DNA of 64,000 bases from Planctomycetota bacterium (GCA_020849795.1 JADZFR010000038.1:1-64000), one strand, 5' to 3'. Counted from the first letter of the stretch, positions 52,999-59,663 are shown. The notes: generated by a model from the letters alone, not told the origin. Numbers and translations are program-made.

Positions 52999-53028
52999 TT
53001 GACAGCACTTGCCTTTCGCACTGACAAT
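52999..53028 (+). promoter_or_regulatory. Candidate sigma70-type promoter of the FHA cluster
   Basis: Perfect -35 hexamer TTGACA (52999-53004), an 18-nt spacer and GACAAT (53023-53028; four of six). It is 60 nt upstream of the ATG at 53089, in the 245-bp gap between divergent operons. I see no other strong element in this gap. Confidence 0.45.
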
Positions 53029-53088: not shown

Positions 53089-54354
53089 ATGGCCACACAA
53101 GAAGTCATTCTTCGCCCCGGCGACTCCATATCCGTTCTGCTCGATGTGCCGGGTCAGCCGCTGCGGCTTGACCTGAGCCTGACACCCAATGGCGTTGCGG
53201 TTTCCGGCGCTCTGCCGCTGGGCGCCCCGACGCTGTATGGCGGGCCGTTGCCGCCTCGATCGGCGATGCGCCCCGACGACGAAGTGCCGGACGAGGCAAT
53301 CGAAGAGATCGACCTTACGGATGAATTCAGCGAGCAAGATGCGCAGCCCCAGCAGGCCCCGCAGTCGCTGGCTGCAGTGTCGCCGTTCAGCGAGCCGAAG
53401 ATGCAGGCTGTTGACGTGCCCTTCGACGACATGGAAGAGGTGCAAGACGAGCCCGCGGTTGTAGAGGAAAGCGCCAGCGCGGGCGACGACCTCGATCTTG
53501 ACCTGGGCGACTTTGAGGAAGAACAGGTAGAGGTTGGCGCAGTTGACATTCCCGACGATGATGGCGCCCTGATGGAAGTACCTGAGGACGATGGTGGTTT
53601 CGGTGGTCCCGTCGAGATACCGGAAGACGATGGCGGGCTGGCACTGGACATCCCGGAAGACGACGCGCCATCCGGCCTTGAGGAATCGGGTTTTTCTGCA
53701 GATGCCATGACCATGGTGCCCCCGACGCGCAAACATTCGGCGCCGGCTCTTTCCCTGTCCGAGAGCGACGGGAGCCTTTCATTCGATGGAGACATGGACG
53801 ACATGGAAATCGACGAACACGGCAACCCGAAAGCCAAATTCCGCCCCAACCCCGAAGACACCCTTCCGGTCTGGACCGGCAAAGCCCGTACTTACAAAGA
53901 CCCCGAAGTAGAGAAGAAGAAAGAGACTTCCAAGATCAACAAGTCGGCACCGGGAAAGCCCGGCGCGCAGCCAGCCAAGCCGGCTGCAAAGCCGATTACA
54001 GGCGCAGTCAAGCCTGCAGCGGCGGCCAAACCGGCGCCTGCGGCAGCCCCAGGGCCGGCCAAGCTGCCGCCCGGCAAGAAGCCGATCACAAAGCAGATCA
54101 AGAAGCCCGGCGCCGCAGAAGAAGGCGACGGAAACTTCACGGTCTTCTTGTCGCCTCCCAAGGGCGCTGACAAGAAGCAGGCCGCAGCCGAGATCATTGC
54201 CGATATCCAGGGCATTGACGTGAACGCGGCCCTGCAACTTGCGGGCAAGATGATTGTGCCTGTGGTCAAGGGTGTGAGCGAAGGAGAAGCCAACACGATC
54301 CGCGACCGGTTCAAGGATGCAGGCCTGAGCTGCCGCATTACCCAGAAGCGCTAA
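53089..54354 (+). CDS. Acidic low-complexity protein with ribosomal L7/L12-like C-terminal domain
   Basis: 421 aa from the ATG at 53089. N-terminal 35 residues (VILRPGDSISVLLDVPGQPL) look like a small beta domain. Residues 60-240 are strongly acidic and disordered, with four related units VDIPDDDG, EVPEDDGG, VEIPEDDGG, LDIPEDD. Residues 290-340 are a basic Pro/Ala/Lys linker. Residues about 345-421 (FTVFLSPPKGADKKQAAAEI, then IADIQGIDVNAALQLAGKMI, VKGVSEGEANTIRDRFKDAG) have the helix-loop-helix pattern of the L7/L12 C-terminal domain, with 'k..v..Gvs..eA..i...f..aG' preserved. In ribosomal L7/L12 this domain recruits translation GTPases. Here the rest of the protein is unrelated, so it is not bL12. 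It may be a docking module. First gene of the cluster. Confidence 0.65.
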   Translation: MATQEVILRPGDSISVLLDVPGQPLRLDLSLTPNGVAVSGALPLGAPTLYGGPLPPRSAMRPDDEVPDEAIEEIDLTDEFSEQDAQPQQAPQSLAAVSPFSEPKMQAVDVPFDDMEEVQDEPAVVEESASAGDDLDLDLGDFEEEQVEVGAVDIPDDDGALMEVPEDDGGFGGPVEIPEDDGGLALDIPEDDAPSGLEESGFSADAMTMVPPTRKHSAPALSLSESDGSLSFDGDMDDMEIDEHGNPKAKFRPNPEDTLPVWTGKARTYKDPEVEKKKETSKINKSAPGKPGAQPAKPAAKPITGAVKPAAAAKPAPAAAPGPAKLPPGKKPITKQIKKPGAAEEGDGNFTVFLSPPKGADKKQAAAEIIADIQGIDVNAALQLAGKMIVPVVKGVSEGEANTIRDRFKDAGLSCRITQKR

Positions 54355-54374
54355 GTCGACCGCAAGGAACAACG

Positions 54375-54644
54375 ATGAAGATCACCAAGAACGCCGACGG
54401 ATCAGCCCTTCTGGTTTGCCCGCAAGGCCAGTTCCTGTTCTCTGAACAGGAGTTTGACGACCTGGTGCACGCAATTCCGATCAGCACTACGCACCTGTAC
54501 CGCCTGCTGATTGACACGCTGATCGATGGCGACCAGCGCAAGCAGCAGTTGCGCGCACTGATTGAAGCCACCGGCAACTCGGACTCACAACTCACGCTGA
54601 TGCAGAACGAGGCGCTGAAACATCTGCCGGGGGAAGACGACTGA
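54375..54644 (+). CDS. Small hypothetical protein, 89 aa
   Basis: Start with AAGGAA about 6 nt upstream. Sequence: beta start (MKITKNADGSALLVCPQGQF), then helices (EQEFDDLVHAIPISTTHLYR, DGDQRKQQLRALIEATGNSD). No signal peptide, no membrane helix, no family I can name. It lies 20 bp after the acidic protein gene and 1 bp before the FHA gene, so it is a stable part of the cluster and probably a small partner of one of the two. Confidence 0.6.
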   Translation: MKITKNADGSALLVCPQGQFLFSEQEFDDLVHAIPISTTHLYRLLIDTLIDGDQRKQQLRALIEATGNSDSQLTLMQNEALKHLPGEDD

Positions 54645-54645
54645 C

Positions 54646-55458
54646 ATGCCTGCAGAGCTGCGCTGGAACCGGCTGATGATCGCGGCCGCCACGGAAGAAG
54701 AATTTCTTCAGGCGGTGTTCGATTACTTTCCACAGTTGCTGCAACTTCCGTACGAGCACGTTGAAGTCGACATCACCGGCACCGCCGAGATTTCGGAAGA
54801 CGCATTCCGCAGCATCGCCATCAAACTGATCGGCGGCGAAGCGGCTGAAAAGAAAATGCTGATCCGGATTCCGCCCAGCGTCGACCGCTACTTCCGCCAT
54901 GCCAACCTGTATCGCATGGTCGATATTGACGTCGTCACTCCGTTGGCCGCCAACGGGCAGGCAGACCCCGCCGCCATCAAGGCAAACATCAAGGCCGGCC
55001 GCTACGAAACCAAAGGCGGCACCAAGCTTCGTCCAGGCGTAGACCTGACCGAGAAGGCGCCGAACCTGGTGCCCGAACCCACAGAGCTGAAGCCGGACGC
55101 CGGCCAGCAGAAAGCGCAACGCCCGCCGGACAAAGCCACCAAGGCCGAGATCGCGTACTTGCTCGACGTAGAGAGCGGCTCGCGGCACGAAATCAAGGAG
55201 AAGATGGTCATCGGCCGCGAAGCGCCCAGCGATCTGGTGTACCAGATTCCGACGATCAGCAAGCGGCACTTCCACATCCGGCGGCAGGGCGGTGGCTTCG
55301 TGATCGAGGATCTTCGCAGCACAAATGGCACGTATCTCAATGGCCTGCCGGTGCACGAGCCCGTGCCGCTGCGCGACGGCGACGAGATCGTTGTTGCCAT
55401 TACGCTTAAGCATCCCAAGGGCGCCCGCATCTTCCAGTTCACAACCAAGGGCGAATAG
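54646..55458 (+). CDS. FHA domain protein with STAS-like N-terminal region
   Basis: 270 aa, cytoplasmic. Residues about 20-110 (FDYFPQLLQLPYEHVEVDIT, GTAEISEDAFRSIAIKLIGG, KKMLIRIPPSVDRYFRHANL, YRMVDIDVVTPL) show the alternation of strands and helices seen in STAS/anti-sigma-antagonist domains; I call this STAS-like with low confidence. A Lys/Pro linker follows. Residues 170-268 are a forkhead-associated domain: KMVIGREAPSDLVYQIPTIS (G-R pair), SKRHFHIRRQGGGFVIEDL and the RSTNGTYLNG loop, with pThr-binding Arg, Ser and Asn present. FHA domains bind phosphothreonine peptides, so a Ser/Thr kinase should act upstream; none is encoded in the window. Confidence 0.85.
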   Translation: MPAELRWNRLMIAAATEEEFLQAVFDYFPQLLQLPYEHVEVDITGTAEISEDAFRSIAIKLIGGEAAEKKMLIRIPPSVDRYFRHANLYRMVDIDVVTPLAANGQADPAAIKANIKAGRYETKGGTKLRPGVDLTEKAPNLVPEPTELKPDAGQQKAQRPPDKATKAEIAYLLDVESGSRHEIKEKMVIGREAPSDLVYQIPTISKRHFHIRRQGGGFVIEDLRSTNGTYLNGLPVHEPVPLRDGDEIVVAITLKHPKGARIFQFTTKGE

Positions 55459-55583
55459 CGGCATTCGCAAATCGCGCCGCCACAGGCGCAGTCAATGCCT
55501 ATCGGTGTTTCCTGACCCGCGCCATAATGACTACTGAACCGTAGGGCGCAGAACCGCGTTCCTATGACTAAGGAACTGGGCCG

Positions 55584-57440
55584 TTGCCGAAGATCTCATT
55601 CAAACCTGTAGACCGAAGCCCCGCGCCAAGCGGGCCCGCCATGTTTGTGAAAATGGGCGGCCTGCTGATGCTCGTAGTCTCCATGGTCGGCGTCATGGTC
55701 GTGCTGTTGCAATACTCGTACGCGGGCAAGGGGGACGAAACGTGGGCCGTTGACACGAACCGCATCAAGACCAATTTCGATCCGCTGCTCACCACCGAGG
55801 AAATCAAGCAGCGCTTTGACCAGAAGAAGCGCGAGTGGGAGCGTTCGCAGGGCATCACCAACGTGCCCGCCGGGACTCCCATCCAGCTGCCGAAAGCCAA
55901 CAAGTCGAACGAGCCCTCCCTGCCGTTCGGCAACCGCGAGAAGCCGGAACCAAGCTCTCCGAATGAGCCTGTCAGCGGCACGCGCCAGAGCATTGAGCAA
56001 GAGCGCGATGCCGAGCGCGAGTTGCAGATCGCTCGCGAGCAATTGAAGAAGGAACACGTCTTCAAGCTGGAAGACGAGTCACAGAATTTTCTCGATTGGG
56101 TGCCTTTTGAGGATGCCTCGCGAGAGAAGACTGCCAATGAGTTCGCAGCACGGCGCGGGCGGCAGGCGCCCGTGTATGAGCGCCTGTCCCTTCAGGTGCT
56201 GAAAAAACTTCCGGGCGCCGAGTATGCCGCGTGCATTCACTCCGGCGTGTACCTCTGGGGCGAGAGCCAGGCTGCCTCCGATGCATACCGCGGCTTGGGG
56301 TTCGCGCTGGAGGGTCGGCTGTTCGATCTGTACGAAGTCCGGCCCGAAGAGGCGATTGTGCTGCAGGATGGCACCAGGGTTGACGGCTGGTTTGAGGGCG
56401 CAGTGGCGCTTCTCGACAGGGGACTGGGCCGCAATGAACACCCGATTGAGCACCGAGTCGCCATCTTCATGGCGCTCTCGCTTCCGGATTCGCTGGCACC
56501 GTACGTCGGCGCAGCCGATGGTGTCAGCCACGAAGACAAACTGGTCAGCGAGGTTGTCACCGTCAAGCTGACCGGTGCGTACGCACGGCGCTGGGCGTAC
56601 AGCCGTGAAGTCAAACCCTACAGCACCAAGGCCAAGCGCGTACTGACCCAGGCGCACGCGCCGCTGTTGCTGACGCCGGACGTGGCAGTGGTCGAAAGCA
56701 AGCCTTACGAGGTATCGGACCCGCTGTTGCAGCAGGTGCGCGACTCCCTGCGCGAGGATCCGATGTTCCTTGAGACTGAGGGCGCCTACTACGCGATTCT
56801 GGCGGCTGCGAACCGCGGTGACGAACTGACCACCATCAACGAAATCGGCTACTTTGACCTCGCCGGCGCCGAGACCGGCCCGCGGTACCGAGGCCAGGGC
56901 GTGCATGTGGAAGGAATGATCGGGGATGAGTACCTGCCCGTGATTCTGCCCCCCAACATCAGCGGCCTGCGCCGTGTGTTTCGTGCGTACGTCGTGAACG
57001 ACATGGTCAACCTTGAGAGTGAGAAGCTGCTGCTCGTGGACATGATTGAGCCCCCCACCGGCCTTGAGCCGCGCGCGGCCGTGCGATTTGACGCGCGTTA
57101 CTACCGAAATGTGTTCGAAACCGACAACACATCCAGCCGCGTGCGGCCACTGCTGATCGTCAAGCGAGTCCTGCCATTCACGCGACAGGACACAGGCAGC
57201 GACTGGGTGTTCGTCGCCATCGGCATGGGCGCCGTGCTGCTTGTCAGCAGCGTATTGCTCTGGTTTGTGCTCGCGGACCGGCGCGAACGCAAGACCTTCG
57301 AACAGAGCCAGCTTGACCTCAGCCGCAAGCGCATGGAAAAAAGAGGCGGGTTGAAGTTGAAGCCGCTGCCCGGATCCAGGCCTGCGTCGCCCGATGACAA
57401 GGCTGACCCGCCCGCGCCGGATAACTCGCCGCCGGCGTGA
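55584..57440 (+). CDS. Two-TM envelope protein of unknown function in the FHA cluster
   Basis: 618 aa starting at a TTG (AAGGA 9 nt upstream; the next in-frame ATG is 55641). Helix 1 at residues ~24-46 (MGGLLMLVVSMVGVMVVLLQ) and helix 2 at about 532-554 (FVAIGMGAVLLVSSVLLWFV), with a 480-residue domain between that should be periplasmic. That domain contains a charged helical start (RFDQKKREWERSQG, QSIEQERDAERELQIAREQL) and then an alpha/beta part with no family I recognise. The cytoplasmic tail is basic and Pro-rich. It may bridge the envelope to the FHA protein. A CATAAT hexamer at 55523-55528 could be an internal -10 box, without a good -35. It ends just before aroB. Confidence 0.7.
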   Translation: MPKISFKPVDRSPAPSGPAMFVKMGGLLMLVVSMVGVMVVLLQYSYAGKGDETWAVDTNRIKTNFDPLLTTEEIKQRFDQKKREWERSQGITNVPAGTPIQLPKANKSNEPSLPFGNREKPEPSSPNEPVSGTRQSIEQERDAERELQIAREQLKKEHVFKLEDESQNFLDWVPFEDASREKTANEFAARRGRQAPVYERLSLQVLKKLPGAEYAACIHSGVYLWGESQAASDAYRGLGFALEGRLFDLYEVRPEEAIVLQDGTRVDGWFEGAVALLDRGLGRNEHPIEHRVAIFMALSLPDSLAPYVGAADGVSHEDKLVSEVVTVKLTGAYARRWAYSREVKPYSTKAKRVLTQAHAPLLLTPDVAVVESKPYEVSDPLLQQVRDSLREDPMFLETEGAYYAILAAANRGDELTTINEIGYFDLAGAETGPRYRGQGVHVEGMIGDEYLPVILPPNISGLRRVFRAYVVNDMVNLESEKLLLVDMIEPPTGLEPRAAVRFDARYYRNVFETDNTSSRVRPLLIVKRVLPFTRQDTGSDWVFVAIGMGAVLLVSSVLLWFVLADRRERKTFEQSQLDLSRKRMEKRGGLKLKPLPGSRPASPDDKADPPAPDNSPPA

Positions 57441-57490
57441 TCGCGGACATGCGCCGCGACAATTGGCCGAAGCGCACGTATAACCCCGCC

Positions 57491-58567
57491 ATGGCTGAGA
57501 GTATCCAAGTAAGCCTGGGCGACCGCGCCTACCGCATCCATGTAGGGCGCGGCCTGGATGGTCTTTCAGCCGCCGTCCCGGCCAGCGCATCAAAAGTGAT
57601 CGTCACAGACAAGAACGTGGGGCGGCTGTACGCGCAGAAGATCAGTCACATGCTGAACGCGCGCGTCCTCACCGTGCCCGCCGGTGAGGGCAGCAAGTCG
57701 CTGGGTCAACTCGAGTCCGTCTTTGCACAATTGCTGGCACCGCGCGACCTCGACCGGCAGTCTGTCATCGTTGCGTTGGGTGGCGGCGTGATCGGTGACC
57801 TTGCCGGTTTCGCAGCGGCCACGCTGTTTCGCGGCGTGCGATACATCCAGTTGCCGACGACTCTGTTGGCGATGGTGGACTCAAGCGTCGGCGGCAAGAC
57901 CGCGATCAACCATGAAACAGGCAAGAATCTGATTGGCGCGTTTCACCAGCCGCAGGCCGTTTGGTGCGACATTGCATTTCTCGAGACGTTGCCGACGCGC
58001 GAGTACGTAAGCGGGTTGGCCGAAGTCATCAAGACCGGAGTTCTCAGCGGCAGCGCGTTTCTTGCGAAGCTTGAACAAAGCGCTTCTGCGATAGTGGCAC
58101 GCAATGATGAAGTGGTCACGCGAATGATTGCTGACTGTGTTCGGTTCAAGGCGGCGGTGGTCGAGCAGGACGAAACCGAGGCCACAGGGCGGCGCGCGAT
58201 GCTCAACTTCGGCCATACGCTTGGCCACGCGCTCGAGAACCTTTACCCCGATCGCTGGCTGCATGGCGAAGCTGTTGCGATCGGCATGGTCGCCGCGCTG
58301 CGCTTGTCGGTCGCGCGTGTCGCGCTGGACGCGGCCGTGGCAGAGCGTGTAACGAGGCTGCTGCATGTATTGGGGTTGCCGACGGAGATACCGCCCGAAC
58401 TTGAAGCACAGGCTGCAACGGCGGTCATGCTCGGCGACAAGAAGCGCGACGGCGGCGCCGTTGGATTTGTTCTGCTCAAGGCGCTCGGCGAGCCGGTGAT
58501 CCAGTCGTGCACCATTGATTCGGCGCTGCTGCACACGTTGATGGGGCCGCGCGATGAACGAACTTGA
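57491..58567 (+). CDS. aroB: 3-dehydroquinate synthase
   Basis: 358 aa from the ATG at 57491, the position expected for the family, though no strong ribosome-binding site is visible; a GTG at 57437 overlapping the upstream stop is an alternative. Motifs: KVIVTDKNVGRLYA, VIVALGGGVIGDLAGFAAAT (NAD site), QLPTTLLAMVDSSVGGKTAI, GAFHQPQAVWCDIAFLETLP and the metal-ligand region LNFGHTLGHALENLYPDRWL followed by HGEAVAIGM. It converts DAHP to 3-dehydroquinate in the shikimate pathway. It overlaps dprA by 14 bp. Confidence 0.95.
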   Translation: MAESIQVSLGDRAYRIHVGRGLDGLSAAVPASASKVIVTDKNVGRLYAQKISHMLNARVLTVPAGEGSKSLGQLESVFAQLLAPRDLDRQSVIVALGGGVIGDLAGFAAATLFRGVRYIQLPTTLLAMVDSSVGGKTAINHETGKNLIGAFHQPQAVWCDIAFLETLPTREYVSGLAEVIKTGVLSGSAFLAKLEQSASAIVARNDEVVTRMIADCVRFKAAVVEQDETEATGRRAMLNFGHTLGHALENLYPDRWLHGEAVAIGMVAALRLSVARVALDAAVAERVTRLLHVLGLPTEIPPELEAQAATAVMLGDKKRDGGAVGFVLLKALGEPVIQSCTIDSALLHTLMGPRDERT

Positions 58568-59663
58568 TGCCCGCGTTGCGCTTACCGTCGCGCGCAAGTT
58601 CACGCCGCTCGCGCTCAGCAACCTGTTCAAGCGATTCGGCAGTGCCGCGGGCATTGTCGGCGCGCCCAAGGCGGAACTCTCAAGCGTACCCAAGGTGAAC
58701 CGTGAGGCACCAGGTGCACTTGTCGAGGTCATTCGCAAGGGCGATCACCTGCGCGAAATGGAAACGGCCGACAAGGCCGGCATCCGGCTGATCATGTTGG
58801 GCGAGCCCGAGTACCCCCAGTTGCTGGCGCGCATCGAAGACCCGCCGCCATTGCTGTACGCTCGCGGCACCCTGCACGCATACGACACGCTGGCCCTGGC
58901 AGTGGTCGGTGGGCGCAGCGCCAGCTACTACGGTACCGCGCAGGCTTCGCGCTTTGCCCGTGACTTTGCCACGCGCCGTGTGACCGTCATCAGCGGCCTT
59001 GCGCGCGGCATTGACACTGCCGCCCATCGTGCGGCGCTGGAAGCCGGTGGCCGCACCATCGCTGTGGTCGGCAGCGGCCTGCTGGACATTTATCCGCCTG
59101 AGAACGACAAGTTTGCGCTGCAGATTGCCGAGAGCGGCGCAGTGGTCAGCGAGTTTCCGCTCAACACCCCCGGCGTCGCGCGGAACTTTCCGCAGCGCAA
59201 CCGGCTGATCAGCGGCATGAGCCTGGGCGTGCTGGTGGTCGAGGCGACTCTGAAGTCGGGAAGTCTGATCACCGCGCGGCTGGCCGGCGAACAAGGCCGA
59301 GAGGTGTTTGCCCTGCCAGGCAAGGTAGACAGTGATCTCAGCGAAGGCCCGCACGCCCTGATTCGCGAGGGCGCGCACCTGGTCACAGAGCCCGCGCACG
59401 TCTACGACGAGCTTGAAATGCTGAAGACACTGCCACAGGAAGCCGCGCCGGCCAGCGCGTCGAAGAAGGGCCCACAGGGCCTCACGGGCACCGAAAGCGC
59501 CCTGTGGAACGTCCTGTTGCCAAGCGACGGCTTGACCCCGGACGAACTGGCGGGCAAGACAAACCTGCCCGTGGCGCAGGTCGCCGCAGGACTGCTAACG
59601 CTTGAAATGAAGCGCCTGGCGAAGCAGCTACCCGGTAAGCGCTTTGTGCGACTGGAACTCTGA
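58554..59663 (+). CDS. dprA: DNA-processing protein DprA
   Basis: 369 aa. N-terminal SAM-like helices (LARVALT-type region to residue 70), Rossmann core LAVVGGRSASYYGTAQASRF, VISGLARGIDTAAHRAALEA, IAVVGSGLLDIYPPENDKFA, NFPQRNRLISGMSLGVLVVE and GSLITARLAGEQGREVFALP, and a C-terminal winged-helix domain (ESALWNVLLPSDGLTPDELA). DprA binds incoming single-stranded DNA and loads RecA during natural transformation; the protein is also widespread in bacteria not known to be competent. Overlaps aroB and stands 45 bp before the methyltransferase gene. Confidence 0.94.
   Translation: MNELDARVALTVARKFTPLALSNLFKRFGSAAGIVGAPKAELSSVPKVNREAPGALVEVIRKGDHLREMETADKAGIRLIMLGEPEYPQLLARIEDPPPLLYARGTLHAYDTLALAVVGGRSASYYGTAQASRFARDFATRRVTVISGLARGIDTAAHRAALEAGGRTIAVVGSGLLDIYPPENDKFALQIAESGAVVSEFPLNTPGVARNFPQRNRLISGMSLGVLVVEATLKSGSLITARLAGEQGREVFALPGKVDSDLSEGPHALIREGAHLVTEPAHVYDELEMLKTLPQEAAPASASKKGPQGLTGTESALWNVLLPSDGLTPDELAGKTNLPVAQVAAGLLTLEMKRLAKQLPGKRFVRLEL

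Follow-up and report, generated by a model that had tools for sequence, protein, structure and literature searches.

The four collinear genes at positions 53089 to 57440 of a Planctomycetota MAG are two units, the first comprising P1, P2 and P3, and the second P4, which belongs with the downstream gene aroB. The window (the whole 64,000-nt stretch of DNA that was analysed) carries all four open reading frames on the plus strand, as are all features given below, in a row and with small gaps, as an earlier note on this DNA had described, and their order is conserved across the family. The grouping of the four as a single cluster, made in the same note, fails, as the loci of two relatives and the P4 loci outside the family show. 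P1 (53089..54354) encodes a 421-residue acidic linker protein with a C-terminal domain resembling the C-terminal domain (CTD) of ribosomal protein bL12; P2 (54375..54644), an 89-residue orphan domain of bbb-aaaa order; P3 (54646..55458), a 270-residue protein with a STAS-like N-domain and an FHA domain; and P4 (55584..57440), a 618-residue protein with two transmembrane (TM) segments. The ATG starts of P1, P2 and P3 are backed by relatives, and the TTG start of P4 is common to most relatives. P4 is followed by aroB (57437..58567; GTG start, with an ATG at 57491 also possible), the ancestral partner gene of P4, and by dprA (58554..59663), which lies 3' of aroB in many P4 loci. The gaps are 20 bp between P1 and P2, 1 bp between P2 and P3, and 125 bp between P3 and P4 (55459..55583), where the boundary of the two units lies.

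Judged from the available flanks (most of the genomes are fragmented MAGs) and from gene calls made in the relatives with a greedy ORF script, P1-P2-P3 are one unit and P4 goes with aroB because of a split locus, the aroB-linked P4 loci, a scattered set and the gap lengths. In G005, a member of another genus of the same family, contig C277 carries an intact P1-P2-P3 with an unrelated 705-aa gene behind it, and on contig C93 a 1046-aa gene precedes P4-aroB-dprA-metH. In G018, which belongs to the same class, homologs of the four genes lie on four contigs (C165, C38, C211 and C161). The neighbourhood survey proposed in the earlier note, with scattered genes as the outcome that would make the linkage accidental, thus found them scattered in both genomes. 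Among 246 genomes of the phylum, 150 have homologs that an extended P4 profile detects. Of 46 P4 loci outside the family, 22 have aroB immediately after P4 in the same orientation (gap -48 to 212 bp), 4 more have dprA closely 3' of P4, and none showed homologs of P1, P2 or P3 near P4. Within the family, gaps of approximately 20 bp (P1-P2) and 1-30 bp (P2-P3) compare with 63-157 bp between P3 and P4. The P3-P4 gap of one genus contains a GC-rich hairpin without a T-run (L037, L038, L039, L044 and L050). A search for a terminator between P3 and P4 revealed hairpins in several relatives and no T-run; the hairpin may serve as a terminator or attenuator. Frameshifts disrupt both P1 and P4 in the assembly of one of these loci (L044, from G014), possibly through sequencing error.

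A σ70-type promoter, TTGACA-N18-GACAAT (52999..53028), is located ca. 60 bp before P1. Though unremarkable on a consensus scan, where one such site was found and 1.0 was expected by chance, the candidate promoter pointed out in the earlier note is real by its conservation. It is kept in 14 of 14 family members, with an N18 spacer in 13 and an N16 spacer in one, and with a -10 box that reads GAGAAT in one relative. Its distance from P1 is 53-65 bp (136 bp in one case), and the DNA around it is divergent. The N17-19 pattern was observed 13 times versus 0.0004 expected from shuffles. This conservation is the strongest confirmation of what the earlier note had observed.

The two TM helices of P4 were expected from the earlier note, and hydrophobic segments and AlphaFold place them at residues 17-46 (55632..55721) and 540-565 (57201..57278). 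In the AlphaFold model, an extracytoplasmic domain (residues 218-370; 56235..56693; pLDDT mostly 80-90) is followed by a second domain of low confidence and then by the second helix. Foldseek matches the extracytoplasmic domain to the OB folds of SSB and the MCM N-domain. P4 differs from these proteins in being anchored to the membrane by two TM segments, and a search of its sequence against the PDB found nothing. A cytoplasmic tail motif, GGLKLKPLP (57345..57371), is conserved in the family and lost in distant relatives. In a scan of named genomes, the sole match was the near-identical MAG JAMQHL010000016.1, with a P4 that is 90% identical. By its conserved C-terminal half and its position directly upstream of aroB, P4 fits a phylum-wide, unnamed family of aroB-linked membrane proteins. 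The view of P4 as the membrane arm of a P1-P3 assembly is not supported, since outside the family P4 goes with aroB.

P1 is, as noted earlier, an acidic L7/L12-like protein (pI 4.28). Its bL12-CTD-like domain occupies residues 348-421 (54130..54351), and this 74-residue stretch hardly varies within the family. In profile comparisons, the domain matched the genome's own bL12 with an hhalign probability of 92 (E 5e-7) and bL12 chains of the PDB with an E-value of about 0.002, and a distant member of the P1 family (L144) exceeds the PF00542 cut-off. Against the NCBIfam L12 equivalog TIGR00855, P1 scored 18 bits, below the cut-off of 84.4, with a match restricted to the CTD. Since a separate bL12 gene is present in the genome, P1 is not the ribosomal protein bL12 itself.

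The linker of P1 is probably disordered and diverges among homologs except for short conserved motifs. One of them, F-S-A-D-A-M-T-M-V-P-P-T-R (FSADAMTMVPPTR; 53692..53730), contains Thr208, a candidate phosphothreonine site. F202, T208, M209 and P211 are invariant among 12 P1 sequences; the TMVPPT core is inexact in some homologs (TMPPAP in L045, and SR for TR in L046 and L048). The other motif, LPVWTGKARTYKDP (53863..53904), recurs in P1 homologs of other families, where LPVWTGKARxYKDP is seen once to three times (L138, L140, L142 and L170, with variants in L328). Across the phylum, proteins ending in the P1 C-domain are about 220-1300 aa long and have acidic or Pro/Ala-rich linkers. Many of them carry a second, N-terminal L12-like domain (hhalign probability 93) and CPxC pairs; a zinc ribbon is often present, and some families have the WTGKAR motif. 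The P1 of the window starts with a conserved 40-residue segment and is without the N-terminal L12-like domain; a profile of that domain (A12) matched none of 12 P1 proteins of the family. The family P1 thus has the C-terminal L12-like domain on a linker that is typical of these tandem-L12 proteins and does not have their second domain. Genes for ABC1/UbiB-type atypical kinases adjoin or lie near P1 homologs at L140, L142, L206 and L210.

P2 was modelled with confidence from a 24-sequence alignment (pLDDT 89, bbb-aaaa), and the model had no significant match among PDB folds. A weak lead is the PqqD-like RiPP recognition element (RRE), which has a bbb-aaa order like that of P2, and RRE enzymes recur among the non-significant Foldseek matches; E-values were 1.5-3.3 with TM scores of 0.29-0.38, and no RiPP genes were seen nearby. 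P2 was found in 28 of 246 genomes. Outside the family, P1-like genes occur in 11 of 14 P2-bearing genomes versus 72 of 232 in the background (P 2e-4, with kinship ignored), and in G020 the P2 and P1 homologs stand head-to-head, about 80 bp apart. P1 and P2 therefore co-occur, as the 11 of 14 count indicates. The docking-type domain in P1 and the small partner P2, both proposed in the earlier note, are supported.

The FHA domain of P3 (residues 188-249; 55207..55392), also recognised in the earlier note, matches PF00498 at 69.9 bits against a gathering threshold of 20.7 (E 2.6e-19). The residues that contact phosphothreonine (G190, R191, S205, H208, N227 and T229) are all invariant in 13 P3 sequences, which supports the phosphothreonine recognition postulated for this protein. 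P3 stays below the cut-offs of the equivalogs OdhI (40.9 versus 200 bits) and FhaB (54.5 versus 125). It also scored 40.6 versus 120.25 with TagH and 34.5 versus 33.2 with YscD_cpl, the latter over the FHA domain only, and a secretion-system FHA protein (TagH, YscD, GltG) was rejected on account of sub-cut-off scores or matches limited to the FHA domain. The N-domain (residues 1-97; 54646..54936) aligns weakly with the core of STAS domains of the same genome (hhalign probability 67, E 5e-5); PF01740 gave no Pfam match, and a profile of the N-domain found nothing significant in the PDB. The comparison is no more than suggestive of a STAS-like fold. P3 is nearly confined to the family, and P1-like and P2 genes occur without it. 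A P3 paralog with the same N-domain and FHA domain (G000:C6:7523-8200; L134:6524-7258) has a conserved neighbourhood of its own; P3 is not necessarily tied to the P1-P2 locus, because this paralog occurs without P1, P2 and P4. A linkage of FHA genes to P1 homologs elsewhere was rejected, as FHA genes were near 5 of about 62 such loci, close to the expectation from FHA density alone.

The best model, to which we give about an even chance as a whole, is that P1-P2-P3 are a cytoplasmic, phosphorylation-responsive scaffold, and that P4 is separate, a gene passed down with aroB-dprA throughout the phylum that stands only incidentally beside the other three. P1 would be a long acidic string bearing short docking motifs and a terminal bL12-CTD-like interaction domain. 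A Hanks-type kinase encoded elsewhere would phosphorylate a threonine of its linker, for which TMVPPT is the candidate site, and the FHA domain of P3 would read the phosphorylated linker. The STAS-like domain may contact a further partner, and P2 is predicted to bind P1, for which the WTGKAR repeats are a possible site. Together, the three proteins could form a multivalent scaffold. A linked Ser/Thr kinase outside the window, which the earlier note had suggested looking for, was not found: of 38 kinase-domain matches counted in the genome, which also has 19 FHA matches, none lies on the 114-kb contig. The link of a kinase to P1-P3 is putative for this reason.

The model competes with several other readings. 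That all four proteins form a single phospho-signalling assembly, in which P4 bridges a complex in the cytoplasm and a domain in the periplasm, would agree with the one conserved promoter upstream, with possible read-through into P4 (P1-P4 are all on the same strand), with the conserved P4 tail, and with the order P1-P2-P3-P4-aroB, from which none of the 13 family contigs spanning the region (window included) departs. The same contigs mostly keep hisZ-cytochrome-lolD before these genes and dprA-metH-plsY after them, however, and the synteny of P1-P4 within the family is weak evidence because the flanking gene order is also kept. Given in addition the separate units of G005 and the company of aroB that P4 keeps elsewhere, we consider such an assembly unlikely. 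It is also quite improbable that P1, with P2 or P3, serves type IV pili or the ATPases of type II secretion as an accessory, with the scaffold tuning PilB/PilT motors. PilB/PilT-type ATPases are encoded within a few genes of P1 homologs in four families (L161 and L201, L163, L180, L329), a raw count with no chance expectation, but most of about 60 P1-like loci are without such a neighbour, and thiolases, ABC1/UbiB kinases and sugar epimerases recur there as well. We therefore treat this proximity as a lead, not a result.

The STAS-like domain raises a further alternative, namely a partner-switching pathway (of sigma-factor or stressosome-like type) in which P3 is the STAS-FHA regulator and P1 and P2 are the scaffold. 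The alignment of its N-domain over the STAS core, and conserved E51/D52 in the region of the phosphorylatable Ser in family P3 proteins, are consistent with this; the hhalign probability is only 67, however, and the neighbouring genes showed neither an anti-sigma kinase nor a sigma factor, which leaves the pathway a distinctly poor prospect. Least probable of all is an action of P1 on the ribosome or on translation factors, to which the homology of its domain to the bL12 CTD might point. Lys and Arg residues of a helix of the bL12 CTD contact translation factors. The corresponding positions are Glu and Ala in P1 when it is aligned with bL12, P1 has no stalk-binding N-terminal domain, its relatives carry two L12-like domains, and bL12 is separately encoded. 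An anti-phage defence function of the four genes was dropped, PADLOC profiles having given 0 matches to the four proteins.

We found no account of the P1-P4 set in the literature on planctomycete FHA proteins with L7 or STAS domains. Like GarA/OdhI and FhaB/FipA, P3 has an FHA domain whose phosphothreonine pocket is intact (FhaB is its best NCBIfam match, and its PDB matches are GarA/OdhI), but differs from them in falling under every equivalog cut-off, in its STAS-like N-domain and in the company of P1 and P2. P1 shares its C-terminal domain with the bL12 CTD (PF00542, a ClpS-like fold) and differs from bL12 in its long acidic linker as well as in the missing stalk domain and the lost factor-binding charges, and its phylum relatives differ from bL12 by having two L12-like domains. 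L12/ClpS domains also occur as insertions in the vWA-MoxR beta-propeller conflict systems described by Kaur et al. (2020; PMC7159879), where a bL12/ClpS-like domain likewise is an interaction module in large multidomain proteins; P1 differs in being a standalone linker protein with no adjoining vWA-MoxR genes.

The cells of Planctomycetota are organised in an unusual way, and few targets are known for their many Ser/Thr kinases. The cluster is now split into two testable units, and two phylum-wide families have been identified, the aroB-linked P4 proteins and the P1 string proteins, which have a bL12-like domain, a docking motif in repeats and a small partner that is conserved. The phospho-site, its reader and the scaffold, all predicted from a single operon, lend themselves to tests with purified proteins. 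More tentatively, and with somewhat less than even confidence, we suggest that the phylum has an undescribed class of scaffolds made of tandem bL12/ClpS-like domains, acidic strings, WTGKAR repeats and a paired P2 domain (also present in two or three copies on linkers), and that in this family a STAS-FHA adaptor brings it under the control of phosphothreonine. If so, multivalent strings of this kind could give order to assemblies or condensates inside the cell. Thiolase genes stand next to P1 homologs at L139, L144, L161, L183 and L201, together with a 3-hydroxyacyl-CoA dehydrogenase gene at L144. At L147:5875-7632, L149:3671-4702 and L151:4792-7329, the encoded proteins each bear two or three P2 domains, carried on long linkers rich in Pro and Ala.
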